From contig NC_014623.1 of assembly GCF_000165485.1 (NCBI RefSeq), forward strand, positions 2,871,501 to 2,935,500: a stretch of 64,000 bases of DNA, given 5' to 3'. The notes beneath the pieces were generated by a model, which worked only from the letters and a program-made list of their open reading frames with translations, searched no databases and was not told the DNA's origin. The translations under genes were made by a program, and so were the position numbers. Shown here piece after piece: positions 4,995-23,360 of the stretch. How positions within the stretch are numbered: position 1 is the first letter of the stretch; each line of letters starts with the position of its first letter. The stretch is from Stigmatella aurantiaca DW4/3-1 (lineage in GTDB: Bacteria > Myxococcota > Myxococcia > Myxococcales > Myxococcaceae).

Positions 4995-7900
4995 ATGAAA
5001 CCAATAGGCGTATGGGGAGCTTCGCTGGTGCTGGTCGCGCTGGCGACCAGTTCCTGCGAAAAGGAGCAGAGTGCGCCGCTGACCAAGCCGACCCCGGCGA
5101 CAGCGCGCACTGTCCGGCAAGAGGCCAATACCACCGGAAGGGTGCTGGTGCTCGGCTCGACCGTCACCGGTGGCCAGTCCAGCCGGGAGGCTCAGGCCGC
5201 GCTGAGCCTGGGCTATCCGGTGACCGTCGTCACGCCCACGCAGTGGAAGGCGATGACGCCGGAGGATTTCCAGAAGTACAACGGCATCATTATCGGGGAT
5301 GCAGCGTGCCAGGGCGATACCAGCGCCATTCAGGCCGCCATCGACAACAGCAACATCTGGGGCGCGGCCGTTGACGGCAACGTCGTCATCACCGGCTCGG
5401 ACACGACCAACAATGGGACGCCGCAGTTCATTGAGAACGCGGTCTCCTACATCGTTGCCCGGACTCGTAACACCGGTATGTACATCTCGTTGGGCTGTGC
5501 CTATCAGAACGCGGCCCCCAATACTCCAGTGCCCCTGTTGAAGCCGTTCGGCGACTTCACGGTGGCCGGTACAGGGTGCTACACCAGCGGTGGTCACATC
5601 TTCCAGATGGAGCCGCCTTTCTTGTCGGATGGTCTCGTCTTGAACGATGGTGCCCTGGCCGGTACTAAGGGCTGTGTGACACGCGCGGTGTTCAGCAGCT
5701 ATCCGCAGAACACCTTCGCCCCGGTTGCTGTGGCGGTAGACGCGTCGGGAACGCTGCCCAACACGAGTTCGTACTTTGAGTGGCTTGAGACGGACAACGA
5801 TGGGAATCCGAAAGTCTACACCGGTACTCCCTACATCGTGACCCGCGGTTCCATGGCGCTCAGCTCGGGCTGCGGCATCGGCTTGGCTGGGCTGACATGC
5901 GAAAATGGCACCGAGGGTAATGGTTATCCGGCGACACCGGGAACGCCGCCCGATCAGACGTGCTCGTTCTCCTGCCACGCTCAGTGGTGTGGCGACGGTC
6001 ATGTGGACATGGAATACGGGGAAGAGTGCGACAATGGCATCCTCAATGGCCGCGCTGACGACGCCAACGGCACCATCGGGACTTGCTCCTCGTTCTGCAA
6101 GGTCCCCGTCCTTGAGACGGATTCGCCCCCGGACGCTATCTGCAAGAATCTCGAACTCATCGCCGACCTCACTTGCGGTGCCAATGGCTCCGTCAACAAT
6201 GGGTCTTGGGACCCGGATGAGGACCTCATCGACTGCCAGCAGCGCCCCATTGGTCCTTACCCGGTTGGGACCACCACCGTCACCCTGACTTGCACCGACT
6301 CCAAGGGCAATACTGACTCGTGCACCGCGACCATCACGGTGCTCGATAAGGACAAGCCCACGCTGACCCTGGTGGGAGGCAACGAGCAGCTCGAGTGCGC
6401 TCCGGGCACGTACGCCGATCCGGGTGCCACCGCCGCCGATGTCTGCGAGGGAAATCTGTCCAGCAAGGTGGCCGTCACCGGCTCGGTGAACCCGGGCGCG
6501 GTGGGCAGCTACGAGCTGACCTACAACGTGAAGGACTCCTCGGGTAACGCGGCCACTCCCGTCAAGCGCACCGTGGCCGTGTCGGACACGCAGAAGCCGA
6601 CCTTGGCGCTCAATGGTCTGGCCAACATCACCGCCGAGTGCGCCTCGCCGTACACCGATCAGGGCGCCACCGCCAGCGACGTGTGCGCGGGCAACCTCAC
6701 CTCCGCCATCGTCAAGACGGGCTCAGTGGACACCGCCGTGCTGGGTACCTACTCCGTCAAGTTCAACGTGCAGGATCCCGAGGGGAACAAGGCCACGGAG
6801 ATCAGCCGCGTGGTCCAGGTGAAGGACACGTTGAAGCCCACGGTGACGGTGAACGGTCCCGCCAACGTGAGGTTCGAGTGCGGCAACGGCGAGTACAACG
6901 ATGAGGGGGCCACGGCCACCGATGCGTGCGCCGGTGTCCTGTCGACGGACCAGAGCACCACCGTGAATCCGAATCAGCCGGGCACGGTGACCATCAGCTA
7001 CAGCGCCACGGACCCCTCGGGGAACACGGGTGTCTCGGCCACGGGCCGCACCGTCACGGTGGAGGACACCCTGCCTCCGACGCTGAGCTTGGTGGGGGGC
7101 GCGCAGAACCTGGAGTGCGGTTCTCCGTACAACGATCCGGGCGCCACGGCCAATGACCAGTGCGCCGGAGACCTGACGGCCTCCATCCAGAAGACGGGTA
7201 CCATCGACAACCGCAACCTCAGCACCCAGACGCTCCACTACACCGTGCAGGATCCGAGTGGCCGCAGTGCCTCGGCCGACCGCGCGGTGACGGTCCGGGA
7301 CACGCTGGCGCCGTCCGTCACGGTGCAGGGCGAACTGTCGCAGCAGATCGAGTGCGGCAGCGGCGACTACACTGATGAGGGGGCCACCGCCAATGATGCA
7401 TGCGAAGGCCCGCTGGCCGCAGTGCCGAGCACCGCAGTGGATCCGAACGTGCCGGGCACAGTGACCGTCACCTACAAGGCCACCGACTCCTCGGGCAACG
7501 AGGGGACTTCGGCCACGGGCCGCACCGTCACGGTGGCGGACACGCTGCCGCCGACGCTGGTCCTGACGCCTGGCCCGCAGAACTTGGAGTGCGGTACGCC
7601 GTTCACGGACCCGGGCGCCACGGCCAACGACCTGTGCTTCGGCAACCTGACGGCCGCCATCCAGAAGACGGGCTCCATCGACAACAAGCAGTTGGGTGCT
7701 CAGAGCATCTCCTACACCGTGCAGGATCCGGGCGGCCGCACCGCCGGGCCCCTCACCCGTACGGTGACGGTGGATGACACCCTGGCGCCGGCCATCACGG
7801 TTAACGGCCCGCTCGACCAGACGTTCGAGTGCGGCTCGGCCTACGTGGATCCGGGCGCCGAAGCCAACGACCTGTGCGCCGGCAACCTGACGCCGGAGAT

Positions 7901-10900
7901 CGTGTCCACGCGGACGCCGATCCCGGGCCAGCCGGGTGCTTTCTCCATCACCTACAGCGTGACGGATCCGTCGGGCAACACGGTCACGTCGCCCACCAGC
8001 CGCACGGTGAAGTCGGACGACAACACGCCGCCGGTGCTGGCGCTCAACGGGCCTGCGGTTCAGGCCCTGGAGTGCGCCACGCCGTACACGGACCTGGGCG
8101 CCATCGCCAGCGACGTGTGCACCGATGACATCAACGACCGCATCACGGTGACGGGCACGGTCAATCCGAACGTGCCGAATACCTACACGGTCACCTACAA
8201 CGTGACGGACGTGGCGGGCCTGAGCGCGCCGCCGGTCTCCCGCCAGGTGAACGTCTCCGACACCCAGAAGCCGGTGGTGACGGTGACGGGGCCCACCTCC
8301 GTGAACATCGAGTGCAACGGCGGTCCGTTCAACGATCCGGGCGCCACGGCCAACGATGCGTGCGCCGGTGCACTGCCGACGGTGGCCAGCCCCGCGGTGA
8401 ACCCGGGCCAGCCCGGAGCGGTGACCGTCACCTACAGCGCCACGGACCCCTCGGGGAACACGGGCGTCTCGGCCACGGGCCGCACCGTCAACGTGCAGGA
8501 CACCCTGCCTCCGGCGCTGACCCTGTTGGGCGATGCCGCCATGGGGCTCGAGTGCGCCTCGCCGTTCAACGATCCGGGCGCCACGGCCAATGACCAGTGC
8601 GCGGGCGACCTGACCGATGACATCGTCAAGACGGGCACGGTCAACAACAAGCAGCTCGGCAACCACGTGCTGGGCTACAGCGTGACGGACCCGTCGGGCC
8701 GCACCGCCTCCGCCAGCCGCACGGTGGAAGTGGACGACACCCTGGCGCCGGTCATCACCATCACCGGGCCGCTTGAGGACACCTTCGAGTGTGGCTCGCC
8801 CTACACGGATCGGGGCGCCACGGCGGAGGACGCCTGCGTCGGCGCTGTGCCTGTCACGGCCACCCAGGTGGGCGACGCCAACCAGCCGGGCTCCTTCATC
8901 ATCAGCTACAGCGCGACGGACCCGTCGGGCAACAGCGTCACCTCTCCGGTCACCCGCCACGTGACGGTGGACGACAACGCGCCGCCCACGCTGGCGCTCC
9001 GGGGCCTGGCCACCGAGGCGCTCGAGTGCGGCAATCCCTACGCGGACCCGGGCGCCATCGCCAACGATGCGTGCTTCGGGGATGTGACCAACCGCATCAC
9101 CGTGACGGGTTCCATCAACAACAAGCAGCTCGGCAGCCAGACACTCACCTACAACGTGACCGACCCGGCCGGGCAGAGTGCTCCGGCGGTGACCCGCACG
9201 GTGAACGTCGGCGACTCGCAGGCCCCCGTCATCACGGTGACCGGCCCGCTGGCCGCCACCATCGAGTGCGGTGGCGATGACTATGTGGATCCGGGTGCGA
9301 CCGCCAATGACGTGTGCGTCGGGCCTGTTCCCGCGGTGGCGACCACGGTCGTCAACCCGGGCCAGGAAGGCACCTACAGCATCAAGTACACGGCGCAGGA
9401 CTCCTCCGGGAACACCGCCACCTCGGCTGCCAGCCGCATCGTGACGGTGGCCGACACCCTGCCGCCGACGCTGGCACTCAACGGCGCGGCCAACCTGCCG
9501 CTGGAGTGCGCCACGCCGTTCAACGATCCCGGCGCCAACGCCTTCGACCAGTGCGCGGGCGACGTGAGCAACCGCATCCAGACCGCGGGCAGCATCGACA
9601 ACAAGCTGCTCTCCATCCCCCAGACGATCACCTACTCCGTGACGGATCCGGGTGGCCGCGCGCCCGCGCCGGTCAACCGCACGGTGACGGTGTCCGACAC
9701 GCTGGCTCCGACCCTGGCCCTCAACGGCGGCTCCACCGACACGTTCGAGTGCGGTGGTACCTACGTGGATCCGGGCGCCTCGGCCAACGACGCGTGCGCT
9801 GGAGATGTGTCCAACCGCGTGGTGCCCACTCGGACCTCCGTGCCGGGCGGATTCACCATCACCTATACTGTGACGGATCCGTCGGGCAACAGCGCCACCG
9901 CGCCGGTGACCCGCACGGTGACCTCGGATGACAACACGCCGCCGGTGCTGGCCCTCAACGGTCCGGCCAACCTCCCGCTGGAGTGCGGCACCTCGTTCAC
10001 GGACCCGGGCGCCATCGCCGAGGACGTGTGCGACGACAACCTGAACATCACCGTGACGGGCACGGTGAACCCCGCGGTGCCGGCTCAGTACACGCTCACC
10101 TACAACGTGACCGACTCGGCCGCCAACGCCGCCGCGCCGGTCAACCGCACGGTGACGGTGCAGGACACGCAGGGCCCGACGCTGGTCCTCAATGGTCCGG
10201 CCACGGCAGGTCTGGAGTGCGGCACCCCGTTCAACGACCCGGGTGCCACGGCCGACGACCTGTGCGAGGGCGATCTGTCCGGCGCGGTGGTTCGCACCGG
10301 CACGCTCAACCAGGGCGCGGTGGGCAACTACACGCTGACCTACAACGTGGCGGACCAGGGAGGCCACACGGCCGCACCGGTCAGCCGCACGGTGGCGGTG
10401 AGCGACACGCTGGCCCCGGTGGTCACGGTCAATGGTCCGGCCTCGCTGGCCGTGGAGTGCGGTGACGACGGGTTCCAGGATCCGGGCGCGACGGCGGAAG
10501 ATGCCTGCGCCGGGACCCTGCCCGCCGTGCCGAGCACCGAGGTGGATCCGGCCGTGCCGGGCGTGGTGGCCATCACCTACAGCGCCACGGACCCATCCGG
10601 GAACACGGGCGTCGGGAACACCGGGCGCACCGTCACGGTGGAGGACACCCTGCCGCCGGAGCTGGCCCTGCTGGGCCCCGCCAACCAGCCGCTGGAGTGC
10701 GGTACCCCGTACAACGATCCGGGCGCCACCGCGGATGACCAGTGCGCCGGCGACCTGACGGGCTCCATCCAGAGGACGGGCTCCATCAACAACAAGCAGC
10801 TCGGCGCCCAGACGGTCTCCTACACCGTTCAGGATCCGGGCGGCCGTACTGCCGGGCCGGTCAGCCGCACGGTGACGGTGGACGACTCGCTGGCGCCGGC

Positions 10901-13580
10901 CATCACGGTCAATGGTCCGCTCGACCAGGTGTTCGAGTGCGGCTCGACCTACGTGGACCCCGGTGCCACGGCCAACGACCTGTGCGCCGACGATCTGACG
11001 GCGAACATCGTGGCCACGCGCACGCCGATCGCGGGCCAGCCGGGCTCCTTCACCATCAGCTACAGCGTGACGGACCCCTCGGGCAACACGGCCACGTCGA
11101 CCTCGAACCGCACGGTGCACGTGGAGGACAACGAGCCGCCCGTGCTGGCGCTCAATGGTCCCGCCACGCAGGCCCTGGAGTGCGGCACGCCGTACACCGA
11201 CCCAGGCGCCACGGCGCAGGACGCGTGCGTGGGAGACCTGACGGCCAGCATCACCCGCTCGGGCGAGGTCAACCCGAACGTGCCGAACCTCTACACGGTC
11301 ATCTACAACGTGTCGGATCCGTCCGGTCAGAGCGCGCCGTCGGTCACCCGCCAGGTGAACGTCAGCGACACGCTGGCCCCGGTCATCAATGTCCAGGGTC
11401 CGCTCAACGACACCTTCGAGTGCGGCGGCGAGTACACCGACCCCGGCGCCACGGCCAATGACCAGTGCTACGGCAACCTGACGGGCGCGGTCGTCGCCAC
11501 GCGCACCACGGTCCCGGGCCAGCCGGGCAACTTCACCATCACCTACAGCGTGCAGGATCCGGCTGGCAACACGGCCACCTCGCCGGTCAGCCGCACGGTG
11601 AAGGTGAACGATGATACGCCCCCGAGCATCTCGCTCAATGGTGCGAACTACATCACCGTCGAGTGCTCGGAGCCCTTCGTGGATCCGGGTGCCAGCGCGA
11701 TCGACCTGTGCGCGGGTGACCTGCCCGTGACGGTGACGGGCACGGTGGACACGACCAAGGCAGGCAACTACGTCCTGAGCTACAGCGCCCAGGACACGGC
11801 CGGGAACACCTCGCCGACGGTCACCCGCACGGTGCAGGTGAATGACTCCGTGGGGCCGGCCATCACCCTGCTGGGTGACAACCCGATGAACCTGGAGTGC
11901 AAGCGTGACGCGTACGTGGAGCCCGGTGCCACGGCCAACGACCTGTGCTCTGGCTCGTCGACCGTCGTCGCGGACTCCTCGACCGTCAACCCGGCGATCC
12001 CGGGCTACTACGCGGTCAACTACACCGCCACGGACAAGAGCGGTCGGCAGACCTTCGCGATCCGCGACGTGAACGTGGTGGACACCCTGCCTCCCGCCTT
12101 CGAGACGCCGGCTCCGATCACGCTGGAGTGCGCCATCGACCCGCTCAACGATTCGCTCCCCAAGCTGATCGACCTGTGCAAGGGCGACATCTCCGCCAAC
12201 GTCATTCGCATCAAGACGTTGTCCGCCGACGACCTGCGGCACGAGGGCAACTACACCATCGTGTACCAGGGCGACGACTTCCGGAATGGAGGATCGCCGG
12301 TCACCATCGAGCGCGATGTGAAGGTGCAGGACACCACGGGCCCGGTGATCTCGCTCACGGGCGAGCCCAACCCGATCATCGAGTGCGGCAGCCAGCCCAA
12401 CCTGGACGCGATCGCCACCGATGCCTGCTACGGCTCCGTGCCTGTGACGCAGATCCCCGCGACGCTGCCGAAAGTGCCGGGCGACCACGTGGTGACGTAC
12501 TCGGCCACGGATCCGGTCGGCAACACCTCGACGGGCAACGGCCTGTCGCGCACGGTGACCATCGTCGACACCAAGGAGCCGACCCTGTGTGTTGTTGAGC
12601 CGGGCGGGCCGGGCGAGCCGGACAAATGTGTTGCTGGGGACCAGAACATCACCTACGAGTGCTCTGGCCACGCGGCGGGCAACGAGTGGGTGCCCCCGGT
12701 CGTCAAGGCGACGGACCTCTGCGAGGGTAACCTGCCGGTGCACAAGTACAACACGGGCGACGACGATGGCGACGGCATCCCCGGCGACATCGACGAGGAC
12801 GACTTCGGCCCTGGCCCGACCACCGAGGTGGAAGGTCTCTACTATGTGCAGTACCTGGCGTGGGACGAGGTCTACAACCTCACGGGTGCCATCCTCTCCG
12901 TGTACGTGAAGGACACCATCAAGCCGAACCTGGCCATCCTCGGCGAGGAGTCGGTGCAGGTGCAGTGCTTCCGTCCCATGGGTGACGAGGAGGATCCGGA
13001 CCCGTACGTCGACGAGGGCGCCATCGGCGAGGACATCTGCTACGGCGACGTGACGCCGTCCGTGCAGACCTTCGGCAGCGTGAACAAGCAGATCCCCGGT
13101 ACCTACACGCTGGAGTACCAGGTGCGTGACGGTGCCTACAACGCCGCGGATCCGCTGTCCCGCACGGTGGAAGTCATCGACAGCATCGCGCCGTCGGTGG
13201 TGGGCCGTCCGGCCATCATCCAGCAGCCGGACCCGAACTTCATGCGGCCGGTGGACCTGAGCGAGTGCGCCGAGGCGGTGGACTCCTGCGAGGGTTACCT
13301 GAACATCAATGGCGATGGCTTCATCGAGTCCATCACCAGCAACGAGCCGGGCGACGACTCGAACGACATCGTCATCGAGTCCAACAGCCGGTTCTTGGTC
13401 CGCGCGAAGCCGAACACCAACGGCACTGACCGTGTGTACGACGTGCACTTCACCATCGGCGACACCTCGGGCAACGTGACGTCGGCTCCGTCTGGCACCT
13501 GCCAGGTCCGCGTGCCGGCCAACCCGTTCGCTCCGGTCACGGTTCAGAAGAAGGGCTCGGGCGTCCTGGCCGGCCGCTAG
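4995..13580 (+). CDS. Giant DUF5011-repeat lipoprotein with cysteine-rich motif
   Basis: The 2861-aa product starts with a lipoprotein signal peptide whose lipobox is LATSSC, with Cys at residue 20, so it is probably anchored in a membrane. Residues 45-310 form an alpha/beta-like N-terminal domain beginning RVLVLGS, perhaps of the GATase/ThuA type, with no confirmed catalytic residues. About 330-370 carry the Myxococcales cysteine-rich pattern CGDG...GEECDNG. Residues 375-450 are HYR-like. About 28 DUF5011 Ig-like repeats follow, most with the pair ECG...D.C. The C-terminal 125 residues match the end of the preceding gene product. The role is inferred as a surface fibre, adhesin or matrix component. 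Terminators on both sides indicate a separate transcription unit. Confidence 0.88.
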   Translation: MKPIGVWGASLVLVALATSSCEKEQSAPLTKPTPATARTVRQEANTTGRVLVLGSTVTGGQSSREAQAALSLGYPVTVVTPTQWKAMTPEDFQKYNGIIIGDAACQGDTSAIQAAIDNSNIWGAAVDGNVVITGSDTTNNGTPQFIENAVSYIVARTRNTGMYISLGCAYQNAAPNTPVPLLKPFGDFTVAGTGCYTSGGHIFQMEPPFLSDGLVLNDGALAGTKGCVTRAVFSSYPQNTFAPVAVAVDASGTLPNTSSYFEWLETDNDGNPKVYTGTPYIVTRGSMALSSGCGIGLAGLTCENGTEGNGYPATPGTPPDQTCSFSCHAQWCGDGHVDMEYGEECDNGILNGRADDANGTIGTCSSFCKVPVLETDSPPDAICKNLELIADLTCGANGSVNNGSWDPDEDLIDCQQRPIGPYPVGTTTVTLTCTDSKGNTDSCTATITVLDKDKPTLTLVGGNEQLECAPGTYADPGATAADVCEGNLSSKVAVTGSVNPGAVGSYELTYNVKDSSGNAATPVKRTVAVSDTQKPTLALNGLANITAECASPYTDQGATASDVCAGNLTSAIVKTGSVDTAVLGTYSVKFNVQDPEGNKATEISRVVQVKDTLKPTVTVNGPANVRFECGNGEYNDEGATATDACAGVLSTDQSTTVNPNQPGTVTISYSATDPSGNTGVSATGRTVTVEDTLPPTLSLVGGAQNLECGSPYNDPGATANDQCAGDLTASIQKTGTIDNRNLSTQTLHYTVQDPSGRSASADRAVTVRDTLAPSVTVQGELSQQIECGSGDYTDEGATANDACEGPLAAVPSTAVDPNVPGTVTVTYKATDSSGNEGTSATGRTVTVADTLPPTLVLTPGPQNLECGTPFTDPGATANDLCFGNLTAAIQKTGSIDNKQLGAQSISYTVQDPGGRTAGPLTRTVTVDDTLAPAITVNGPLDQTFECGSAYVDPGAEANDLCAGNLTPEIVSTRTPIPGQPGAFSITYSVTDPSGNTVTSPTSRTVKSDDNTPPVLALNGPAVQALECATPYTDLGAIASDVCTDDINDRITVTGTVNPNVPNTYTVTYNVTDVAGLSAPPVSRQVNVSDTQKPVVTVTGPTSVNIECNGGPFNDPGATANDACAGALPTVASPAVNPGQPGAVTVTYSATDPSGNTGVSATGRTVNVQDTLPPALTLLGDAAMGLECASPFNDPGATANDQCAGDLTDDIVKTGTVNNKQLGNHVLGYSVTDPSGRTASASRTVEVDDTLAPVITITGPLEDTFECGSPYTDRGATAEDACVGAVPVTATQVGDANQPGSFIISYSATDPSGNSVTSPVTRHVTVDDNAPPTLALRGLATEALECGNPYADPGAIANDACFGDVTNRITVTGSINNKQLGSQTLTYNVTDPAGQSAPAVTRTVNVGDSQAPVITVTGPLAATIECGGDDYVDPGATANDVCVGPVPAVATTVVNPGQEGTYSIKYTAQDSSGNTATSAASRIVTVADTLPPTLALNGAANLPLECATPFNDPGANAFDQCAGDVSNRIQTAGSIDNKLLSIPQTITYSVTDPGGRAPAPVNRTVTVSDTLAPTLALNGGSTDTFECGGTYVDPGASANDACAGDVSNRVVPTRTSVPGGFTITYTVTDPSGNSATAPVTRTVTSDDNTPPVLALNGPANLPLECGTSFTDPGAIAEDVCDDNLNITVTGTVNPAVPAQYTLTYNVTDSAANAAAPVNRTVTVQDTQGPTLVLNGPATAGLECGTPFNDPGATADDLCEGDLSGAVVRTGTLNQGAVGNYTLTYNVADQGGHTAAPVSRTVAVSDTLAPVVTVNGPASLAVECGDDGFQDPGATAEDACAGTLPAVPSTEVDPAVPGVVAITYSATDPSGNTGVGNTGRTVTVEDTLPPELALLGPANQPLECGTPYNDPGATADDQCAGDLTGSIQRTGSINNKQLGAQTVSYTVQDPGGRTAGPVSRTVTVDDSLAPAITVNGPLDQVFECGSTYVDPGATANDLCADDLTANIVATRTPIAGQPGSFTISYSVTDPSGNTATSTSNRTVHVEDNEPPVLALNGPATQALECGTPYTDPGATAQDACVGDLTASITRSGEVNPNVPNLYTVIYNVSDPSGQSAPSVTRQVNVSDTLAPVINVQGPLNDTFECGGEYTDPGATANDQCYGNLTGAVVATRTTVPGQPGNFTITYSVQDPAGNTATSPVSRTVKVNDDTPPSISLNGANYITVECSEPFVDPGASAIDLCAGDLPVTVTGTVDTTKAGNYVLSYSAQDTAGNTSPTVTRTVQVNDSVGPAITLLGDNPMNLECKRDAYVEPGATANDLCSGSSTVVADSSTVNPAIPGYYAVNYTATDKSGRQTFAIRDVNVVDTLPPAFETPAPITLECAIDPLNDSLPKLIDLCKGDISANVIRIKTLSADDLRHEGNYTIVYQGDDFRNGGSPVTIERDVKVQDTTGPVISLTGEPNPIIECGSQPNLDAIATDACYGSVPVTQIPATLPKVPGDHVVTYSATDPVGNTSTGNGLSRTVTIVDTKEPTLCVVEPGGPGEPDKCVAGDQNITYECSGHAAGNEWVPPVVKATDLCEGNLPVHKYNTGDDDGDGIPGDIDEDDFGPGPTTEVEGLYYVQYLAWDEVYNLTGAILSVYVKDTIKPNLAILGEESVQVQCFRPMGDEEDPDPYVDEGAIGEDICYGDVTPSVQTFGSVNKQIPGTYTLEYQVRDGAYNAADPLSRTVEVIDSIAPSVVGRPAIIQQPDPNFMRPVDLSECAEAVDSCEGYLNINGDGFIESITSNEPGDDSNDIVIESNSRFLVRAKPNTNGTDRVYDVHFTIGDTSGNVTSAPSGTCQVRVPANPFAPVTVQKKGSGVLAGR

Positions 13581-14207: not shown

Positions 14208-17200
14208 CTACCGTCGGCGCTTCCGGGCCAGCGCGGCCGACAGGGCCAGGCCGATCATCGCCAGCGAAGCAGGCCCCCCACGGGTGGAGGCGCACCCTCC
14301 GCCGAGGAGCGCCCAGTCGCTGGGGGGAACAGGCGGCGGCTGAACGTTCCAACTGGCCGAGGCGGGGGTCGGATCCACGTTGCCGGCCTGGTCCCGGGCG
14401 CGCACCTGGAGGGTGTGAGGGCCTTCGGCGAGCCCCGGGAAGGTGGGGGCCTCGGAGCACGGGGCGAAGGCGGCGTTGTCGAGGCTGCACTCGTACGTGA
14501 CGTTCGGCTCATTGGAGCTGAACTTGAACGAGGCATCGGGCTCGAAGGTGTCACCCGAGGGGCCTGAGACGATGGTGGTGTCGGGGGCCGCCGTGTCGAC
14601 CACGAAGCTCACGGGCGCGGAGGGTCCGCTGACGTTGCCAGCCAGGTCCGAGGCGGTGGCGGTGACGGTGTAGGGGCCATCGGGCAGTGGGGAGGACGGG
14701 GTGATCGTCCAGAGGCCCGCTGCATCCGTGGCGGTGGTGCCCAACACCGAGCCATTGAGGGTCACTTCCACCGTGCTGAGCGGCTCGGCGGTTCCTGTGA
14801 TGGTGGGCGTGTTGTCGCTCGTCACCGTGCCATCAGCGGGGCTGGTCACCACCGGGGCCGGCGGGGGGGTGGTGTCGATGGTGAAGGTGTTGATGTTGGA
14901 CTGGGGGCTGGCGTTCCCGGCGGCGGTGGTGGCCACGGCGCTCACGTCATAGGTCCCTGGCAGCAGCGGGGCTGTCGGCGTGAAGCTCCAGGCCCCGCTG
15001 GCATCCGCGGTGATGGAGCCCAGCTCGGTGGTGCCCAGGTAGAGCGTCACCGTGATGTTGGGATCGGCGGTTCCCGTGAACACGGGGGTGGTGTTGCGGG
15101 TCACCGAGAGGTGCTCCGGTGTCACCACGACCGGCGCCGCGGGCACGGTGGTGTCGACGATGAAGGTGTTGGTGTTGGACTCGGGGCTGATGTGCCCCGC
15201 TGCGTCCGTGGCGGTGGCCTTCACCTGGTGGGTGTCCGCGGAGAGCCCCACGGTGGGGGTGAAGCTCCAGGCGCCGCTGGCGCTGGCGGTGGTGGTGCCG
15301 ATGGGGTTGCCATCCACGATGACGGTGACGGTGGCGCCCGCCTCCGCGGTACCGGAATAGGTGGGCGTGTTGTCACTGATGGTGGACCCATCGGCGGGGG
15401 TGACCACGACCGGAGCGGCCGGAGCGGTGGTGTCGACGATGAAGGTGTTGGTGTTGGACTCAGGGCCGGTGTTGCCCACGGCGTCGGTGGCGGTGGCCTT
15501 CACGGTGTGAGGGCCATCCGCCAGGGGCACGGTGGGGGTGAAGCTCCAGGCGCCGCTGGCGTTGGCGGTGGTGGTGCCCACCGGGACGCCATCGACGATG
15601 ACGTTGACCGTGGCCCCTGCCTCGGCGGTGCCGGAGTAGGTGGGCGTGGTGTCGGTGAGAACGGCGCCGTTGGCGGGGGCGGTGACCACGGGGGCCGCTG
15701 GGGCCGTGGTGTCGATGATGAAGGTGTTGGTGTTGGACTCAGGGCTGGCGTTGCCTGCCGCGTCCGCGGAGGTGGCCTTCACGGTGTGGGAGCCGTCCGC
15801 CAGGGGCACGGTGGGGGTGAAGCTCCAGGTCCCACTCGTGTTGGCCGTGGCGCTGCCCACGGGGATGCCGTCGACGATGACGGTGACGGTGGCCCCGGCT
15901 TCGGCGGTGCCGGAGTAGGTGGGCGTATTGTCCGTGAGGGTGGCGCCGTTGGCGGGGGTGATGACCACCGGTGCGGCGGGGGCGGTGGTGTCGACGATGA
16001 AGATGTTGGTATTGGACTCGGGGCTGGTGTTGCCCACGGCGTCGGTGGCGGTGGCCTTCACGGAGTGAGAGCCGTCCAGCAGGGGCGCGGTGGGGGTGAA
16101 GCTCCAGGCGCCGCTGGCGCTGGCGGGGGTGGTGCCGATGGGGACGCCATCGACGATGACGGTGACGGTGACACCCGCTTCGGCGGTGCCGGAGTAGGTG
16201 GGCGTGGTGTCCGTGAGGACGGCCCCGTTGGCGGGGGTGGTGACCACGGGGGCGTCCGAGGCGGTGGTGTCGACGGTGAAGGTGTTGGTGTTGGACTCGG
16301 GGCTGAGGTTGCCCACGGCGTCGGTGGCGGTGGCCTTCACGGTATGGGAGCCGTCTGCCAGGGGCACGGTGGGGGTGAAGCTCCAGGCGCCACTGGTGTT
16401 GGCGATGGTGGTACCCACGGGTGTGCCATCGACGATGACGGTGACGGTGGCGCCCGCTTCGGCGGTGCCGGAGTAGGTGGGCGTATTGTCACTGATGGTG
16501 GAGCCCTGGGAGGGAGCGATGACCACGGGGGCCGCTGGGGCCGTGGTGTCGATGATGAAGGTGTTGGTGTTGGACTCAGGGCCGGTGTTGCCCACGGCAT
16601 CGGTGGCGGTGGCCTTCACGGTGTGAGAGCCGTCCGCGAGAGGCGCGGTGGGAGTGAAGCTCCAGGAGCCGCCGGCGCTGGCGGTGGTGGTGCCCACGGG
16701 AGCGCCGTCGACGATGACGGTGACGGTGGAGCCCGCTTCCGCGGTGCCGGAGTAGGTGGGCGTGGTGTCGGTGAGAACGGCGCCGTTGGCCGGAGTGGTG
16801 ACCACCGGAGCGGTGGGAGCGGTGGTGTCGACGATGAAGGTGTTGGTGTTGGACTGGGCACTGGTGTTTCCCGCCGCATCGGTGGCGGTGGCCCTCACGG
16901 TGTGAGAGCCACCCAGCAAAGGAGCAGTCGGCGTGAAGCTCCAAGAGCCGCTGGCGCTGGCGGGGGTGGTGCCCACCGGGACGCCATCCACGATGACGGT
17001 GACGGTGGAGCCCGCTTCGGCAGTGCCGGAGTAGGTGGGCGTGGTGTCCTGGGTGGTGGACCCATTGGCGGGGGTGACCACGACTGGAGCTGCGGGAGCG
17101 GTGGTGTCGACGATGAAGGTGTTGGTGTTGGACTCAGGGCCGGTGTTGCCCACGGCGTCGGTGGCGGTGGCCTTCACGGAGTGAGAGCCATCCAGCAGGG

Positions 17201-20200
17201 GCACGGTGGGGGTGAAGCTCCAGGAGCCGCTAGCGCTGGCGGTGGTGGTGCCCACGGGAGCGCCGTCCACGATGATGGTGACGGTGGAGCCCGCTTCGGC
17301 AGTGCCGGAGTAGGTGGGCGTGGTGTCCTGGGTGGTCGAGCCGTTGGCGGGGGTGACCACGACCGGAGCTGCGGGAGCGGTGGTGTCGACGATGAAGGTG
17401 TTGGTGTTGGACTCAGGGCCGGTGTTGCCCACGGCGTCGGTGGCGGTGGCCTTCACGGTGTGAGAGCCATCCAGCAGAGGCACGGTGGGAGTGAAGTTCC
17501 AGGAGCCGCTGGCGCTGGCGGTGGTGGTGCCCACGGGAGTGCCGTCCACGATGATGGTGACGGTGGAGCCCGGTTCGGCAGTGCCGGAGTAGGTGGGCGT
17601 GGTGTCCTGGGTGGTGGACCCATTGGCGGGGGTGACCACGACCGGAGCTGCGGGAGCGGTGGTGTCGACGATGAAGGTATTGGTGTTGGACTGGGCACTG
17701 GTGTTGCCCGCCGCATCGGTGGCGGTGGCCTTCACGGTGTGAGGGCCGTCCAGCAGGGGCACGGTGGGGGTGAAGCTCCAGGAGCCGCTGGCGCTGGCGG
17801 TGGTGGTGCCCACCGGGACGCCATCGACGATGACGGTGACGGTGGAGCCCGGTTCGGCAGTACCGGAGTAGGTAGGCGTGGTGTCCTGGGTGGTGGACCC
17901 ATTGGCGGGGGTGACCACGACCGGAGCTGCGGGAGCGGTGGTGTCGACGATGAAGGTGTTGGTGTTGGACTCAGGGCCGGTGTTGCCTGCCGCATCGGTG
18001 GCGGTGGCTTTCACGGAGTGAGGGCCGTCCAGCAGGGGCACGGTGGGGGTGAAGTTCCAGGCCCCGCTCGTGTTGGCGGTGGTGGTGCCCACGGGCGTGC
18101 CATCGACGATGACGGTGACGGTGGAGCCCGGTTCGGCAGTGCCGGAGTAGGTAGGCGTGGTGTCCTGGGTGGTGGACCCATTGGCGGGGGTGACCACGAC
18201 TGGAGCTGCGGGAGCGGTGGTGTCGACGATGAAGGTGTTGGTGTTGGACTCAGGGCCGGTGTTGCCCACGGCATCGGTGGCGGTGGCCTTCACGGAGTGA
18301 GAGCCGTCTGCGAGAGGTGCGGTGGGAGTGAAGCTCCAGGCCCCGCTCGTGTTGGCGGTGGTGGTGCCCACGGGAGCGCCGTCCACGATGATGGTGACGG
18401 TGGAGCCCGGTTCGGCAGTGCCGGAGTAGGTGGGCGTGGTGTCCTGGGTGGTGGACCCATTGGCGGGGGTGAGCACCACGGGGGCCGCCGGAGCGGTGGT
18501 GTCGACGATGAAGGTGTTGGTGTTGGACTCAGGGCCGGTGTTGCCCGCCGCATCGGTGGCGGTGGCCTTCACGGTGTGAGAGCCATCCGCCAGGGGCACG
18601 GTGGGGGTGAAGCTCCAGGCCCCGCTCGTGTTGGCGGTGGTGGTGCCTACCGGGACGCCATCGACGATGACGGTGACGGTGGAGCCCGCTTCGGCAGTGC
18701 CGGAGTAGGTGGGCGTGGTGTCGGTGAGAACGGCACCGTTGGCCGGAGTGGTCACCACAGGAGCTGCGGGAGCGGTGGTGTCGACGATGAAGGTGTTGGT
18801 GTTGGACTGGGCGCTGGTGTTGCCCACGGCGTCGGTGGCGGTGGCCTTCACGGTGTGAGAGCCATCCAGCAGGGGCACGGTGGGGGTGAAGCTCCAGGCC
18901 CCGCTCGTGTTGGCGGTGGTGGTGCCCACCGGGACGCCATCGACGATGACGGTGATGGTGGAGCCCGCTTCGGCGGTACCCGAGTAGGTGGGCGTGGTGT
19001 CCTGAGTCGTGGACCCATTGGCCGGGGTGACCACCACGGGGGTCGCCGGGGGAGTGCTATCGACGGTGAAGGTGTTGGTGTTGGACTCGGGACTGAGGTT
19101 GCCCGCCGCGTCGGTGGCGGTGGCCTTCACGGTGTGCGTGCCATCCGCCAGGGGCACGGTGGGGGTGAAACTCCAGGCCCCGCTCGTGTTGGCGGTGGCG
19201 GTGCCCACCGGGACGCCATCGACGATGACGGTGACGGTGGAGCCCGCTTCGGCGGTACCCGAGTAGGTGGGCGTGGTGTCCTGGGTGGTGGACCCATTCG
19301 CGGGGGTGAGCACCACGGGGGCCGCCGGAGCGGTGGTATCGACGATGAAGGTGTTGGTGTTGGAAGGAACGCTGGAGTTGCCCGCCGCATCGGAAGCAGT
19401 GGCCCTCACGGAGTGAGAGCCGTCCAGCAGGGGCGTGGTGGGGGTGAAGCTCCAGGAGCCGGAGGCGCTGGCGGTGGTGGTGCCCACGGGACTGCCATCG
19501 ACAAAGATGGTGACGGTGGAGCCCGCTTCGGCGGTGCCCGAGTAGGTGGGCGTGTTGTCGCTGGTGACGGAGCCGTTGGCAGGGGTGATGACCACCGGGG
19601 CCGCCGGGGGGGTGGTGTCGAGGATGAAGGTGTTGGTGTTGGATTCGGGGCTGGTGTTGCCCGCCACATCGGTGGCGGTGGCCTTCACCGAGTGAGGGCC
19701 ATCCAGCAGGGGCACGGTGGGCGTGAAGAGCCACGCCCCACTCGAGTTCGCGATCGTGGTGCCCACGGGAACGCCATCGACGATGACGGTGACGGTGCTG
19801 AAGGGCTCGGCCGTGCCGGAGTAGGTGGGCGTGCTGTCCGTGATGGTGGTGTTGTGAACCGGGGTGCTGACCACCGGAGCGGCGGGAGGGGTCGTGTCCA
19901 CCACGAAGGTGTTGGTGTTGCTGACAGGTCCCAGGAGCCCATCGGTGTCCGCCCGGGCGTTCACGGAGTGAGTGCCCTCCGCAAGGGGCGTGGTGGGGAT
20001 GAACGACCAGTTGCCACTGGCATCGGGAGTCGTCCGTCCCACTTCGACGCCATCTACATAGATGACCACCTCGGTGCCTGGAGCTGAGTCTGGAATCGTG
20101 CCGGAGTAGGTGGGCGTCGTGTCGTTGGTGCGCGAGTTATGCGCCGGCGTTACCACCACCGGGGTGGGCACGGGCGAGTAGCAGCCTGGAACGATGGTGA

Positions 20201-21512
20201 GAACACCATCGGCGCCAGGCTCCGCACCGTAAGGATCCTCGAGTGACAGTTGCACGCCGCTGGCTCCACCGCTGACGGAACCGATGGGCGGAACGCACGG
20301 GCCGCCGCAGGACTGGAAGACGATCTGGCCGCCACCGCCACCGCCTCCCGGGCCGGCGGGGTAATTCGTGCTGGCACCTTTGCCACCGACAGCATGGATG
20401 CGGGTGTAATTGCAGGTCGCATTTTCCGTGAAACGCAGGTGGATGGTACCGCCGCCACCCCCGCCGCCAGCACCATCCGTGGAGGCATTCGATGCCTCGA
20501 AACCATCGGCGAGGATGGAGCCATTGCCAAAGAGAGAGTGCGCCCGGATGAAGATGATGCCTCCCCCCGCACCTCCGGCGGCGGTCGAGGGGCCCTTGAC
20601 GTGGCCCGGTGCCGCGCCACCACCCAGGGTCAAACGCGCAAGCGGCGGATACACCAGGGCCGCTCCTCCTTCGCCGCCCACCTCCCGGCCATCATCACTG
20701 TTGCCGCCACGGCCGCCGACGCCGCCGTTGCCACCACCGCCGCCGCCAGACAGCACACAGACACCGCCGCCGGCGCCGTTGGCCATCCGGCCGCGCCCCG
20801 CGACAGCGGGCACGAAGCGGGTCTGGGCAATGCCCTCGCCTTTCTGAGCGCCCGCGGGTGCCGGCTGATCGAGAGCCGAGCAGTTGGTGGTGGAGGACGT
20901 GTCCTTCACGACCTGCCCACCGCGAAAGCCTCGGCTCGTGACGGTGATGGAGCCGCTGTTCGTCACCATCCCCTGGGCCAGGAAGGCCAGGACGCCTCCC
21001 GTGTTGTTGTTCCCATCCCAGGCGCGGGCGGTGATGTTGCCGCTCGCGGCGATGGTGACCGTCGTGTACTCCGGCACCCGGATGACCTGGGAGACGTTGG
21101 ACGCGTAGGAGTAGCTCAGCGGCTCCTCCAGGGTCAGCGTCGTTGCGGTGACGGAAATGACCCGCGCGAGCTCCCACCGGCCCACCGGATCGTTGGAGAG
21201 GTCGATGGTGGTCGGCCCACCCGAAGCGGGCTCGGGAACGATGCCCGTCGTCTGGATCACCATCACCAGGTCGCCCGCCCCCGCCGACCAGCCCGAGGTG
21301 GCGGTGATCGGGATCGTGGTGTCCCCGGGGGCCAGCGGAGCCCGCACCCGGGCGTACCGGTTGATCATCTGGTTGTTCGTGGTGATGGTGAGGGCGCCAT
21401 CCCTCCCGGTTCCGACGCCGAACAGGTCCTGTGCCGCCCAGGCCGGCAGCGCGCACACGAGCACCGCCAGCAGGGCGGTGCGCAGGAGGTTCCTCATGGA
21501 TGGAGTCTTCAT
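14208..21512 (-). CDS. Giant Ig-like-repeat adhesin with MYXO-CTERM-like anchor
   Basis: The 2434-aa product has a signal peptide (hydrophobic LLRTALLAVLVCALPAWA, cleavage near residue 27). A glycine-rich N-terminal region follows (about 190-400), then about twenty tandem Ig-like (Big_6/BapA-type) repeats of 93 aa with the core TPTYSGTAEAGSTVTVIVDG. A final Ig-like module with one Cys pair precedes the C-terminus GGGCASTRGG, a hydrophobic stretch and RKRRR. That end fits the MYXO-CTERM sorting signal, which in this phylum directs proteins to the cell surface. Its start lies 15 nt downstream of the stop of the OmpA gene, so the two form an operon. The proposed role is cell-cell or cell-substrate adhesion. 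The ATG at 21512 is preferred over one six codons later because only it has an upstream GGGGA. Confidence 0.9.
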   Translation of the reverse strand: MKTPSMRNLLRTALLAVLVCALPAWAAQDLFGVGTGRDGALTITTNNQMINRYARVRAPLAPGDTTIPITATSGWSAGAGDLVMVIQTTGIVPEPASGGPTTIDLSNDPVGRWELARVISVTATTLTLEEPLSYSYASNVSQVIRVPEYTTVTIAASGNITARAWDGNNNTGGVLAFLAQGMVTNSGSITVTSRGFRGGQVVKDTSSTTNCSALDQPAPAGAQKGEGIAQTRFVPAVAGRGRMANGAGGGVCVLSGGGGGGNGGVGGRGGNSDDGREVGGEGGAALVYPPLARLTLGGGAAPGHVKGPSTAAGGAGGGIIFIRAHSLFGNGSILADGFEASNASTDGAGGGGGGGTIHLRFTENATCNYTRIHAVGGKGASTNYPAGPGGGGGGGQIVFQSCGGPCVPPIGSVSGGASGVQLSLEDPYGAEPGADGVLTIVPGCYSPVPTPVVVTPAHNSRTNDTTPTYSGTIPDSAPGTEVVIYVDGVEVGRTTPDASGNWSFIPTTPLAEGTHSVNARADTDGLLGPVSNTNTFVVDTTPPAAPVVSTPVHNTTITDSTPTYSGTAEPFSTVTVIVDGVPVGTTIANSSGAWLFTPTVPLLDGPHSVKATATDVAGNTSPESNTNTFILDTTPPAAPVVITPANGSVTSDNTPTYSGTAEAGSTVTIFVDGSPVGTTTASASGSWSFTPTTPLLDGSHSVRATASDAAGNSSVPSNTNTFIVDTTAPAAPVVLTPANGSTTQDTTPTYSGTAEAGSTVTVIVDGVPVGTATANTSGAWSFTPTVPLADGTHTVKATATDAAGNLSPESNTNTFTVDSTPPATPVVVTPANGSTTQDTTPTYSGTAEAGSTITVIVDGVPVGTTTANTSGAWSFTPTVPLLDGSHTVKATATDAVGNTSAQSNTNTFIVDTTAPAAPVVTTPANGAVLTDTTPTYSGTAEAGSTVTVIVDGVPVGTTTANTSGAWSFTPTVPLADGSHTVKATATDAAGNTGPESNTNTFIVDTTAPAAPVVLTPANGSTTQDTTPTYSGTAEPGSTVTIIVDGAPVGTTTANTSGAWSFTPTAPLADGSHSVKATATDAVGNTGPESNTNTFIVDTTAPAAPVVVTPANGSTTQDTTPTYSGTAEPGSTVTVIVDGTPVGTTTANTSGAWNFTPTVPLLDGPHSVKATATDAAGNTGPESNTNTFIVDTTAPAAPVVVTPANGSTTQDTTPTYSGTAEPGSTVTVIVDGVPVGTTTASASGSWSFTPTVPLLDGPHTVKATATDAAGNTSAQSNTNTFIVDTTAPAAPVVVTPANGSTTQDTTPTYSGTAEPGSTVTIIVDGTPVGTTTASASGSWNFTPTVPLLDGSHTVKATATDAVGNTGPESNTNTFIVDTTAPAAPVVVTPANGSTTQDTTPTYSGTAEAGSTVTIIVDGAPVGTTTASASGSWSFTPTVPLLDGSHSVKATATDAVGNTGPESNTNTFIVDTTAPAAPVVVTPANGSTTQDTTPTYSGTAEAGSTVTVIVDGVPVGTTPASASGSWSFTPTAPLLGGSHTVRATATDAAGNTSAQSNTNTFIVDTTAPTAPVVTTPANGAVLTDTTPTYSGTAEAGSTVTVIVDGAPVGTTTASAGGSWSFTPTAPLADGSHTVKATATDAVGNTGPESNTNTFIIDTTAPAAPVVIAPSQGSTISDNTPTYSGTAEAGATVTVIVDGTPVGTTIANTSGAWSFTPTVPLADGSHTVKATATDAVGNLSPESNTNTFTVDTTASDAPVVTTPANGAVLTDTTPTYSGTAEAGVTVTVIVDGVPIGTTPASASGAWSFTPTAPLLDGSHSVKATATDAVGNTSPESNTNIFIVDTTAPAAPVVITPANGATLTDNTPTYSGTAEAGATVTVIVDGIPVGSATANTSGTWSFTPTVPLADGSHTVKATSADAAGNASPESNTNTFIIDTTAPAAPVVTAPANGAVLTDTTPTYSGTAEAGATVNVIVDGVPVGTTTANASGAWSFTPTVPLADGPHTVKATATDAVGNTGPESNTNTFIVDTTAPAAPVVVTPADGSTISDNTPTYSGTAEAGATVTVIVDGNPIGTTTASASGAWSFTPTVGLSADTHQVKATATDAAGHISPESNTNTFIVDTTVPAAPVVVTPEHLSVTRNTTPVFTGTADPNITVTLYLGTTELGSITADASGAWSFTPTAPLLPGTYDVSAVATTAAGNASPQSNINTFTIDTTPPPAPVVTSPADGTVTSDNTPTITGTAEPLSTVEVTLNGSVLGTTATDAAGLWTITPSSPLPDGPYTVTATASDLAGNVSGPSAPVSFVVDTAAPDTTIVSGPSGDTFEPDASFKFSSNEPNVTYECSLDNAAFAPCSEAPTFPGLAEGPHTLQVRARDQAGNVDPTPASASWNVQPPPVPPSDWALLGGGCASTRGGPASLAMIGLALSAALARKRRR
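14590..20170 (-). repeat. About twenty 279-bp tandem repeats within the adhesin gene
   Basis: Each unit encodes 93 aa (TAPAAPVV to NTNTFIVD). Units between about 17,000 and 18,600 are almost identical at the nucleotide level and recur at an exact 279-bp spacing. Outer units are more diverged, which suggests that the array grew by unequal crossing over in its middle. Such an array can change length by recombination and is hard to assemble from short reads. Confidence 0.92.
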
Positions 21513-21527
21513 GTGTGGTCCCCGCGG

Positions 21528-23360
21528 TTACGGCTGGCCGCCCTCGCGGGGCGTGGTGAGGAATTCGACCCGGCGGTTGGCCGCCCGGCCTTCGACGGTG
21601 TCATTCGATGCGACGGGGTACTGCCGCCCGTAGCCTTTGGGCACCAGGCGCCCGATGGGCACGCCGCGGGTGACGAGGTAGTCGCGCACCTCCTCGGCGC
21701 GCTTCTGGGACAGCTCGCGGTTGTAATCCTGGCTGCCGCGCTCGTCCGTGTGGCCCTCGATCCAGATCTTCTCCAGCTCCGGGTGCTCGATGATGATCCG
21801 CGCCACCTGGTCCAGCAGCTTGTTGCTGCGGGGCAGGATGGTGGCCTTGTCGGAGTCGAAGTAGACCTTGTCCTTGATCTCGATGCGGTCCCGCTGGATC
21901 TCCACCAACTGCGGCTGCTGCACTGGGCAGCCCTGGTTCGCGGCCGGACCCGGCTCGTTCGGGCAGTTGTCGCGGTGATCCGGCAGCTGGTCCTTGTCCG
22001 TGTCCTTCGGGGGGCAGCCCTTCAGCTCGTGGATGCCGGGCACCGACGGGCACTTGTCCGACGCGTCCTCGATTCCATCGCCATCCGTGTCCGGGCAGCC
22101 CTGGAAGCGCTCCACGCCGGGCACCGACGGGCACTTGTCATCCGGATCCACGAGGCCATCGCCATCCGTGTCCGGGCAGCCCTGGAACCGCGCCACGCCG
22201 GGCACCGACGGGCACTTGTCATCCGGATCCAAGATGCCATCGCCATCCGAGTCCTTCACCGGGCAGCCCTGGGCATCCACCCGGACGCCCTGGCCCACGC
22301 CCTGGCAGGTATCGGCGACGTTCGCGATCCCGTCGTTGTCGTCATCCAGATCCGGGCACTGCTCGGCGGTGTGCTTGCCTCCCGCCACGCACCGGAACGG
22401 CGTGTTCACCAGGGCCACACCCAGCAGGCCCCGGAAGGCCGGCGTGCCCGGCCCGTCGCCCATGCCACCGCCCACCAGCGCATAGCCCTCGAACGCGGGG
22501 CTCAAGGGCACGCGCACCCCTGCCAGTGCTTCCACCGAGTTGCCGGAGCGCTTGAAGGGAACGGAGGCCAGGACGTTCAGCTCTCCGCGCACGCCCTCGT
22601 TCGTGGTGGCCAGCACCGCGCCCAGGCGCAGCTCCGGGCCCAGCTCGTCCTGGATGTTCTCGTCCTCCACCAGGATGGTGCTCGAGCGGATCGTGAGGCC
22701 CGCATCCAGCGCGGCGCGCAGCAGGCCGAAGCGGCGGCCCACCATCACGCTGGGGATAAGGCGGGGCGAGCCGTCCTTCGCCAGGGACGTGGCGCTGCCC
22801 AGCGGCAGCCCCACCTGTGCACCGATGGCGAGATCCACGGGCTGTTCATCGGCCTGGGCCAGCAAGCCGAACCGCACCGAGAGGTACGGGGTGCCAAGCG
22901 CCAGCCCCTCGGCGGGCTGATCCAACCCATAGGGTGTGAGATCATCTCCTCCCTGGGTCAGCAGCAATGGCACCTGCACGCCCAGTTCCAGCCAGTTGAA
23001 CAGGCCGTAGGCCGCTGCCAGGTGGGCCGTGACGCGCTGGCCCACCAGCGCGCCCAGCTTCTCTCCGTCCTTGAAGAGGACCAAAGGGTCTTTCTGGTAG
23101 TGGCCGGTCAGCGAGAAGCGGTAGCCGCCCCGGTTCAGCACCTCGCCCGTGCCCAGGAGCAGGGAGCCCTTGCCGCTGGGGTTGAGCGTCAGGCGCTCCA
23201 GTTCGATCTCCGGCAGCCCCTGCGGTTGCGCGAGCGCGGCGGTCCCCGTGAGCACCGCGGCGAGCGCGAGCACCCGGACCCAGCAGACGGGGCTCCGCGT
23301 CAGGGCCACGCGTCGAGAGGTATCAGCCGGCGATCCTGCGAGCGGTGTGGCTTCGGTCAT
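21528..23360 (-). CDS. OmpA-family outer-membrane protein with thrombospondin type 3 repeats
   Basis: The ATG at 23360 gives 610 aa and has an AGGA 10 nt upstream; a longer frame to 23438 adds an unlikely leader. Residues 1-44 form a signal peptide ending ALA. About 50-340 look like a beta-barrel domain. About 340-475 are thrombospondin type 3 calcium-binding repeats (DTDGDGLVDPDDKCPSVPG). The C-terminal 105 residues are an OmpA peptidoglycan-binding domain with YFDSDKA, EGHTDERGS and NRRVEF. It should span or line the outer membrane and grip peptidoglycan. It is the first gene of an operon with the giant MYXO-CTERM-like adhesin, which suggests that it helps display or anchor that protein. 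Confidence 0.9.
   Translation of the reverse strand: MTEATPLAGSPADTSRRVALTRSPVCWVRVLALAAVLTGTAALAQPQGLPEIELERLTLNPSGKGSLLLGTGEVLNRGGYRFSLTGHYQKDPLVLFKDGEKLGALVGQRVTAHLAAAYGLFNWLELGVQVPLLLTQGGDDLTPYGLDQPAEGLALGTPYLSVRFGLLAQADEQPVDLAIGAQVGLPLGSATSLAKDGSPRLIPSVMVGRRFGLLRAALDAGLTIRSSTILVEDENIQDELGPELRLGAVLATTNEGVRGELNVLASVPFKRSGNSVEALAGVRVPLSPAFEGYALVGGGMGDGPGTPAFRGLLGVALVNTPFRCVAGGKHTAEQCPDLDDDNDGIANVADTCQGVGQGVRVDAQGCPVKDSDGDGILDPDDKCPSVPGVARFQGCPDTDGDGLVDPDDKCPSVPGVERFQGCPDTDGDGIEDASDKCPSVPGIHELKGCPPKDTDKDQLPDHRDNCPNEPGPAANQGCPVQQPQLVEIQRDRIEIKDKVYFDSDKATILPRSNKLLDQVARIIIEHPELEKIWIEGHTDERGSQDYNRELSQKRAEEVRDYLVTRGVPIGRLVPKGYGRQYPVASNDTVEGRAANRRVEFLTTPREGGQP

Follow-up and report, generated by a model that had tools for sequence, protein, structure and literature searches.

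In the genome of Stigmatella aurantiaca DW4/3-1 (GCF_000165485.1, a single contig of 10,260,756 bases) we analysed a stretch of 64,000 nt (NC_014623.1, positions 2,871,501-2,935,500 of the forward strand). This stretch is hereafter called the window, and coordinates are given in its own numbering, 1 being its first letter. It carries two co-directional genes, the upstream one encoding a TraB-like outer-membrane protein (P0002) and the downstream one a very long surface adhesin of the AgmC family with a MYXO-CTERM-type tail (P0001). We propose, with a probability of about 0.6, that P0001 and P0002 constitute one functional unit, a two-part surface adhesin anchored to peptidoglycan. Since the pair is found repeatedly side by side or fused across myxobacteria, it probably works as one anchored adhesin. 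Our own results are the domain composition of both proteins, the TraB homology, the AgmC membership, the linkage, the co-divergence and the repeated fusion.

P0002 has the order of parts known from TraB, that is barrel, TSP3 and OmpA. Pfam detects in it an OmpA domain (E 6e-23) and TSP_3 repeats (E 5e-16), and the AlphaFold2 model (mean predicted local distance difference test, pLDDT, of 87) shows a barrel of 12 strands, a rod formed by TSP3, and the OmpA domain. The hhalign comparison with the TraB of the same genome gave a probability of 100 (E 1.1e-59), with homology from the barrel through the C-terminal end, and the TraB model NF033763 scored 244.8 bits on P0002, which does not reach its curated cut-off of 700. 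The true traB (locus L048, 960.6 bits on NF033763) lies elsewhere in the genome and overlaps by 4 nt a TraA gene, the tail of which matches the TraA model. P0002, in turn, has as its neighbour an AgmC-type gene without a TraA match. An earlier note on this DNA had recognised OmpA and TSP3 in P0002 and overlooked the TraB-type barrel; it had also spoken of a TraAB-like design that is not TraAB. The latter statement is now firmer than that note could know, given the part-by-part match, the score of 245 vs 700 bits and the presence of a separate true traAB.

P0001 passes the cut-off (275 bits) of the AgmC family model NF047640 with 529.6 bits, covering model positions 2-409 of 412. We take AgmC to be an adventurous gliding motility protein, whose family was named after a motility mutant. 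The AlphaFold2 model of the N-terminal domain (AgmC_N) has a mean pLDDT of 61.5 and a predicted template modelling (TM) score of 0.69, with low confidence in the middle; therefore, no fold is claimed. The top Foldseek matches, beta-helix phage tailspikes and capsule depolymerases, were rejected (TM about 0.17), as were the VIA-align fold matches, which were unrelated proteins covering mainly residues 50-148. Pfam detects about 20 Big_13 immunoglobulin-like (Ig) domains in P0001, and its orthologues have 21-24 Ig matches each. The protein has the MYXO-CTERM layout, with an N-terminal signal peptide and a tail (LLGGGCASTRGGPASLAMIGLALSAALARKRRR) made of a Gly-rich motif with Cys, a hydrophobic helix and an Arg-rich end. 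The repeat adhesin of the earlier note was right, and its AgmC assignment had been missed. The open reading frames (ORFs) and Pfam also confirm the gene layout given there, a 610-aa OmpA/TSP3 protein followed after 15 nt by a 2434-aa repeat adhesin. In most relatives the same two genes are 9-19 nt apart. Against relatives, the ratio of nonsynonymous to synonymous substitution rates (dN/dS) is 0.20-0.31 for P0001 and P0002; this purifying selection on both indicates that they are real genes. A sigma-70 promoter scan found nothing.

The linkage survey covered the window's own genome and those of relatives, 39 in all. Where the AgmC_N match reached at least 439 bits, a same-strand TraB-like ORF preceded the gene by less than 1 kb in 20 of 23 cases; for weaker matches above the cut-off, mostly proteins of ~700-800 aa, this was so in 2 of 29. 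The reverse survey, which is the less biased direction, started from 57 loci picked solely by similarity to P0002, and in 31 of them the TraB-like ORF had a MYXO-CTERM protein directly beside it or fused to it. About eight further loci have a large neighbour cut by a contig end, and L152, linked at first sight, was left out of the 31 because its MYXO-like motif does not stand at the frame end. In the complete window genome, eight TraB-like clusters bear a barrel, and five of these have a same-strand MYXO-CTERM match no more than 8 kb away, vs a mean of 0.20 such clusters after circular shifts (18 of 20,000 shifts reach 5). Of ten control OmpA genes, one has a MYXO-CTERM match inside this range, at a distance of about 5 kb and not adjacent. 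With a Fisher p of 0.03 this single-genome contrast is modest, so we rely mainly on the multi-genome linkage, which includes Hyalangium, Archangium, Myxococcus xanthus AM003 and Corallococcus. The earlier note had proposed to look for conserved adjacency of OmpA/TSP3 and MYXO-CTERM genes, whose absence would speak against a partnership; we found instead strongly conserved linkage and repeated fusion.

The two partners also diverge together. In 26 linked pairs, the mirror-tree comparison of AgmC_N distances with those of the TraB-like partner gave an r of 0.834, part of which is due to shared species history; none of 10,000 permutations was as high (maximum 0.457). Several genomes hold two AgmC/TraB-like modules, and because both trees part the two modules alike, each must have been passed on as a unit. 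The second AgmC module (L047, L124-L129) has two tandem TraB-like genes ahead of its AgmC gene.

Fusion is the other line of evidence. We examined 15 fused ORFs (L046, L050, L054, L119, L120, L132, L150, L164, L261, L263, L266, L269, L270, L272 and L274), which consist of an adhesin, an internal MYXO-CTERM, a signal-peptide-like segment and a barrel, mostly followed by TSP3 and OmpA; L050 has no OmpA. In the TraB-like tree, some deep nodes of which are weakly supported, the fusions are spread over at least three distinct places, namely the ftsA-adjacent ORFs, one group inside the window's clade, and L132. Both gene orders occur among TraB-like genes and their MYXO-CTERM partners. A fused adhesin/MYXO-CTERM/barrel/OmpA protein beside ftsA and ftsZ, MXAN_5598, has already been likened to TraA plus TraB (PMC11980579). 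We found that ftsA-adjacent ORFs of the MXAN_5598 type (L261, L263, L266, L269, L270, L272, L274; complete relatives whose Myxococcus/Corallococcus type was deduced from family tables) start with AgmC_N, followed by Ig repeats. This is a new observation, from which it follows that the published fusion is probably the fused form of the P0001/P0002 pair. The corresponding ftsA-adjacent ORF of the window genome (L054/L055) carries a different adhesin half, in which AgmC_N is not matched, so this half is exchangeable. The pair described in the earlier note is one case of a wide family, with a published fused member (PMC11980579), of which that note was unaware.

All 15 fusions show one arrangement: after the Arg cluster closing the MYXO-CTERM comes another hydrophobic segment and then a signal-peptidase-like site with a terminal AQ, which lies about 43-57 residues past the Cys and just ahead of the barrel (L119 was read by eye). 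An example of this internal segment is LLRRHRSSLRLAGTWKLLGVLAAVFVSVPALAQ, and the signal peptide of P0002 itself has the same ending (ALAQ). A start of translation within the fused ORFs was considered and rejected, as no Shine-Dalgarno match stands ahead of a start codon in the linker; a polyprotein is therefore preferred, not proven. These features suggest that the fused ORFs encode a polyprotein from which myxosortase and signal peptidase are predicted to release two separate outer-membrane proteins. An internal signal peptide in the fusions is not mentioned in the main text of PMC11980579. If the fused chain is cut in two, the stoichiometry of a surface complex would be set in a manner unusual for a Gram-negative cell. 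A broader proposal, which we hold tentatively and at somewhat under even odds, makes TraAB a single branch within a large family of myxobacterial modules that join an adhesin to a wall anchor. In this family, a TraB-like anchor would be paired with MYXO-CTERM adhesins that can replace one another. Several branches would make both as one polyprotein whose MYXO-CTERM Arg cluster also serves as the start of the internal signal peptide, and the cuts by myxosortase and signal peptidase would fix a 1:1 ratio.

Table 1. Features of the P0002/P0001 gene pair, in window positions or protein residues
Feature	Position	Strand	Basis or remark
P0002, TraB-like outer-membrane protein, 610 aa	21528..23360	(-)	ORF and translation
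P0002 signal peptide, ...TAALAQ/PQG	residues about 28-45		P0002 N-terminus
P0002 predicted 12-strand beta-barrel	residues about 80-320		AlphaFold2
P0002 TSP3 Ca-binding repeats	residues about 335-480		Pfam TSP_3
P0002 OmpA peptidoglycan-binding domain	residues about 495-600		Pfam OmpA
Intergenic gap P0002/P0001, 15 nt	21513..21527	(-)	genes co-directional, P0002 upstream
P0001, AgmC-family MYXO-CTERM-type surface adhesin, 2434 aa	14208..21512	(-)	NF047640 and Big_13 matches
AgmC N-terminal domain (AgmC_N), P0001 residues 9-416, glycine-rich	20265..21488	(-)	NF047640; partly resolved beta-rich model
Tandem array of 279-bp (93-aa) Ig-like repeats, 17.2 copies, 85% match	15124..19920	(-)	TRF
C-terminal MYXO-CTERM-type sorting tag: GGGC motif, hydrophobic helix, RKRRR	14208..14306	(-)	TIGR03901

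Around the pair and its families we made some further observations. A third ORF (P0003, 2861 aa, 4995-13580, (+) strand), which starts like a lipoprotein and contains ~25 bacterial surface Ig-like domains, converges on the 3' end of P0001, and its C-terminal end is kept next to the gene pair in a relative (L115, 92% identity). A stand-alone class of AgmC proteins of about 680-860 aa (L264, L267, L271, L273) lacks a TraB-like neighbour and mostly ends in a GCGC-type tail; the window genome holds two such genes side by side at C1:9860071-9863408. Two TraB-like genes without a MYXO-CTERM partner (L136, L142) are followed by a serine/threonine-kinase-like gene, one clearly and the other probably.

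How the unit might operate can be drawn from the work on Myxococcus xanthus TraA/TraB and on MYXO-CTERM, after which the export route, the tail processing, the 1:1 complex and the anchoring are modelled here. P0001 would be exported by Sec, its MYXO-CTERM tail would be lipidated and then cut by myxosortase, and the protein would stand on the cell surface, its roughly 20 Ig repeats forming a stalk that bears the AgmC_N head; MYXO-CTERM processing has been described (PMC11980579). The P0002 barrel would be placed in the outer membrane, with the calcium-binding TSP3 rod and the OmpA domain reaching the peptidoglycan. By binding the base of P0001, P0002 may give it mechanical purchase on the wall, as proposed for TraB with TraA. 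TraA and TraB stand at 1:1, and TraB has been proposed to anchor the junction to peptidoglycan (PMC12045341); TraAB without the OmpA domain still adheres, but exchange is lost (PMC8651087). The unit would most likely serve surface or cell-cell adhesion in gliding or group movement, and not outer-membrane exchange. In this sense, of the distinct two-component surface receptor or adhesion system suggested in the earlier note, the adhesion system fits the evidence, while a receptor role finds no support so far. If the proposal is true, TraAB would be no one-off, and myxobacteria would possess a general means of securing very long surface proteins to the wall through the outer membrane, which matters for the bearing of force by gliding and cohesive cells; the AgmC family would also gain a likely partner, the TraB-like protein.

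Several points weigh against this proposal. Tail excepted, P0001 has no BLAST similarity to TraA beyond chance, and for this reason a TraB-type docking surface on P0001 is only assumed. The P0001 tail obtains 17.0-17.4 bits with TIGR03901 (MYXO-CTERM), just short of the cut-off of 20. This is more than the genuine TraA tail from this genome obtains (15.9 bits), so in practice the P0001 tail can be taken as MYXO-CTERM-type, in line with the GGGC, hydrophobic and basic tail that the earlier note had read in the sequence. The Cys and one Gly are invariant across 28 partner tails, and TIGR03901 matches 28/28 of them at E up to 10. The surveyed loci are orthologues and paralogues of related genomes and not independent samples. 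The biological role is the weakest step, the AgmC family name being the sole pointer to gliding. Finally, nearly half of the TraB-like loci have no MYXO-CTERM neighbour (some being truncated where a contig stops), and AgmC proteins of about 700-800 aa also occur alone, without a TraB-like neighbour, so neither part strictly requires the other everywhere.

These unpaired forms would also be expected if there were no physical partnership and two envelope genes shared an operon merely through need under the same conditions. We consider this unlikely, although it is the best of the alternatives, since single-ORF fusions arise in several branches, both gene orders occur, the trees agree and paralogous modules stay together. 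Two-partner secretion, with the P0002 barrel as a dedicated export pore for P0001, is more doubtful still. It would account for the one-to-one pairing of the genes, and there is a structural likeness between the barrel and two channels, the amyloid exporter FapF and COG4313; however, these Foldseek matches are moderate (TM by target 0.6-0.7), and Pfam finds no POTRA domain in P0002. Least probable is a second system of outer-membrane exchange or kin recognition, in which P0001 would bind its like on a neighbour and the complex would fuse outer membranes: the part list is that of TraA/TraB, P0002 is homologous to TraB, and among close relatives the AgmC_N head diverges faster than the TraB-like partner (identity 74-81% vs 87-92%; dN 0.12-0.17 vs 0.04-0.08), but diversifying selection on the head is not seen (dN/dS 0.24-0.31, which is purifying selection, with dS raised too), Pfam and NCBIfam (E 0.001) find in P0001 no PA14 domain or TraA Cys-rich repeats, as the earlier note had stated, the 20-Ig-repeat stalk would keep the membranes far apart, and forward screens in M. 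xanthus reportedly suggest that TraAB alone is needed for exchange (PMC12045341), an argument qualified by the fact that Myxococcus-type genomes too hold TraB-like/AgmC operons.

The proposed anchored two-part adhesin can be compared with four known systems. The TSP3 and OmpA periplasmic part of P0002 matches the solved structure of Capnocytophaga gingivalis OmpA (PDB 5wtl, 342 bits), which, unlike P0002, is a Bacteroidota protein and for which, to our knowledge, no MYXO-CTERM partner is known. The AgmC family (NF047640) mixes stand-alone, operon-linked and fused forms, P0001 being of the operon-linked kind. P0001 and P0002 hold the same two halves as MXAN_5598, but as two separate genes and in the reverse order. 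With TraA/TraB (NF033759/NF033763) the pair shares the arrangement in one operon of a MYXO-CTERM surface protein and a barrel-TSP3-OmpA protein, although the gene order is reversed and P0001, unlike TraA, is built of AgmC_N and Ig repeats instead of a PA14-like domain and a Cys-rich stalk.

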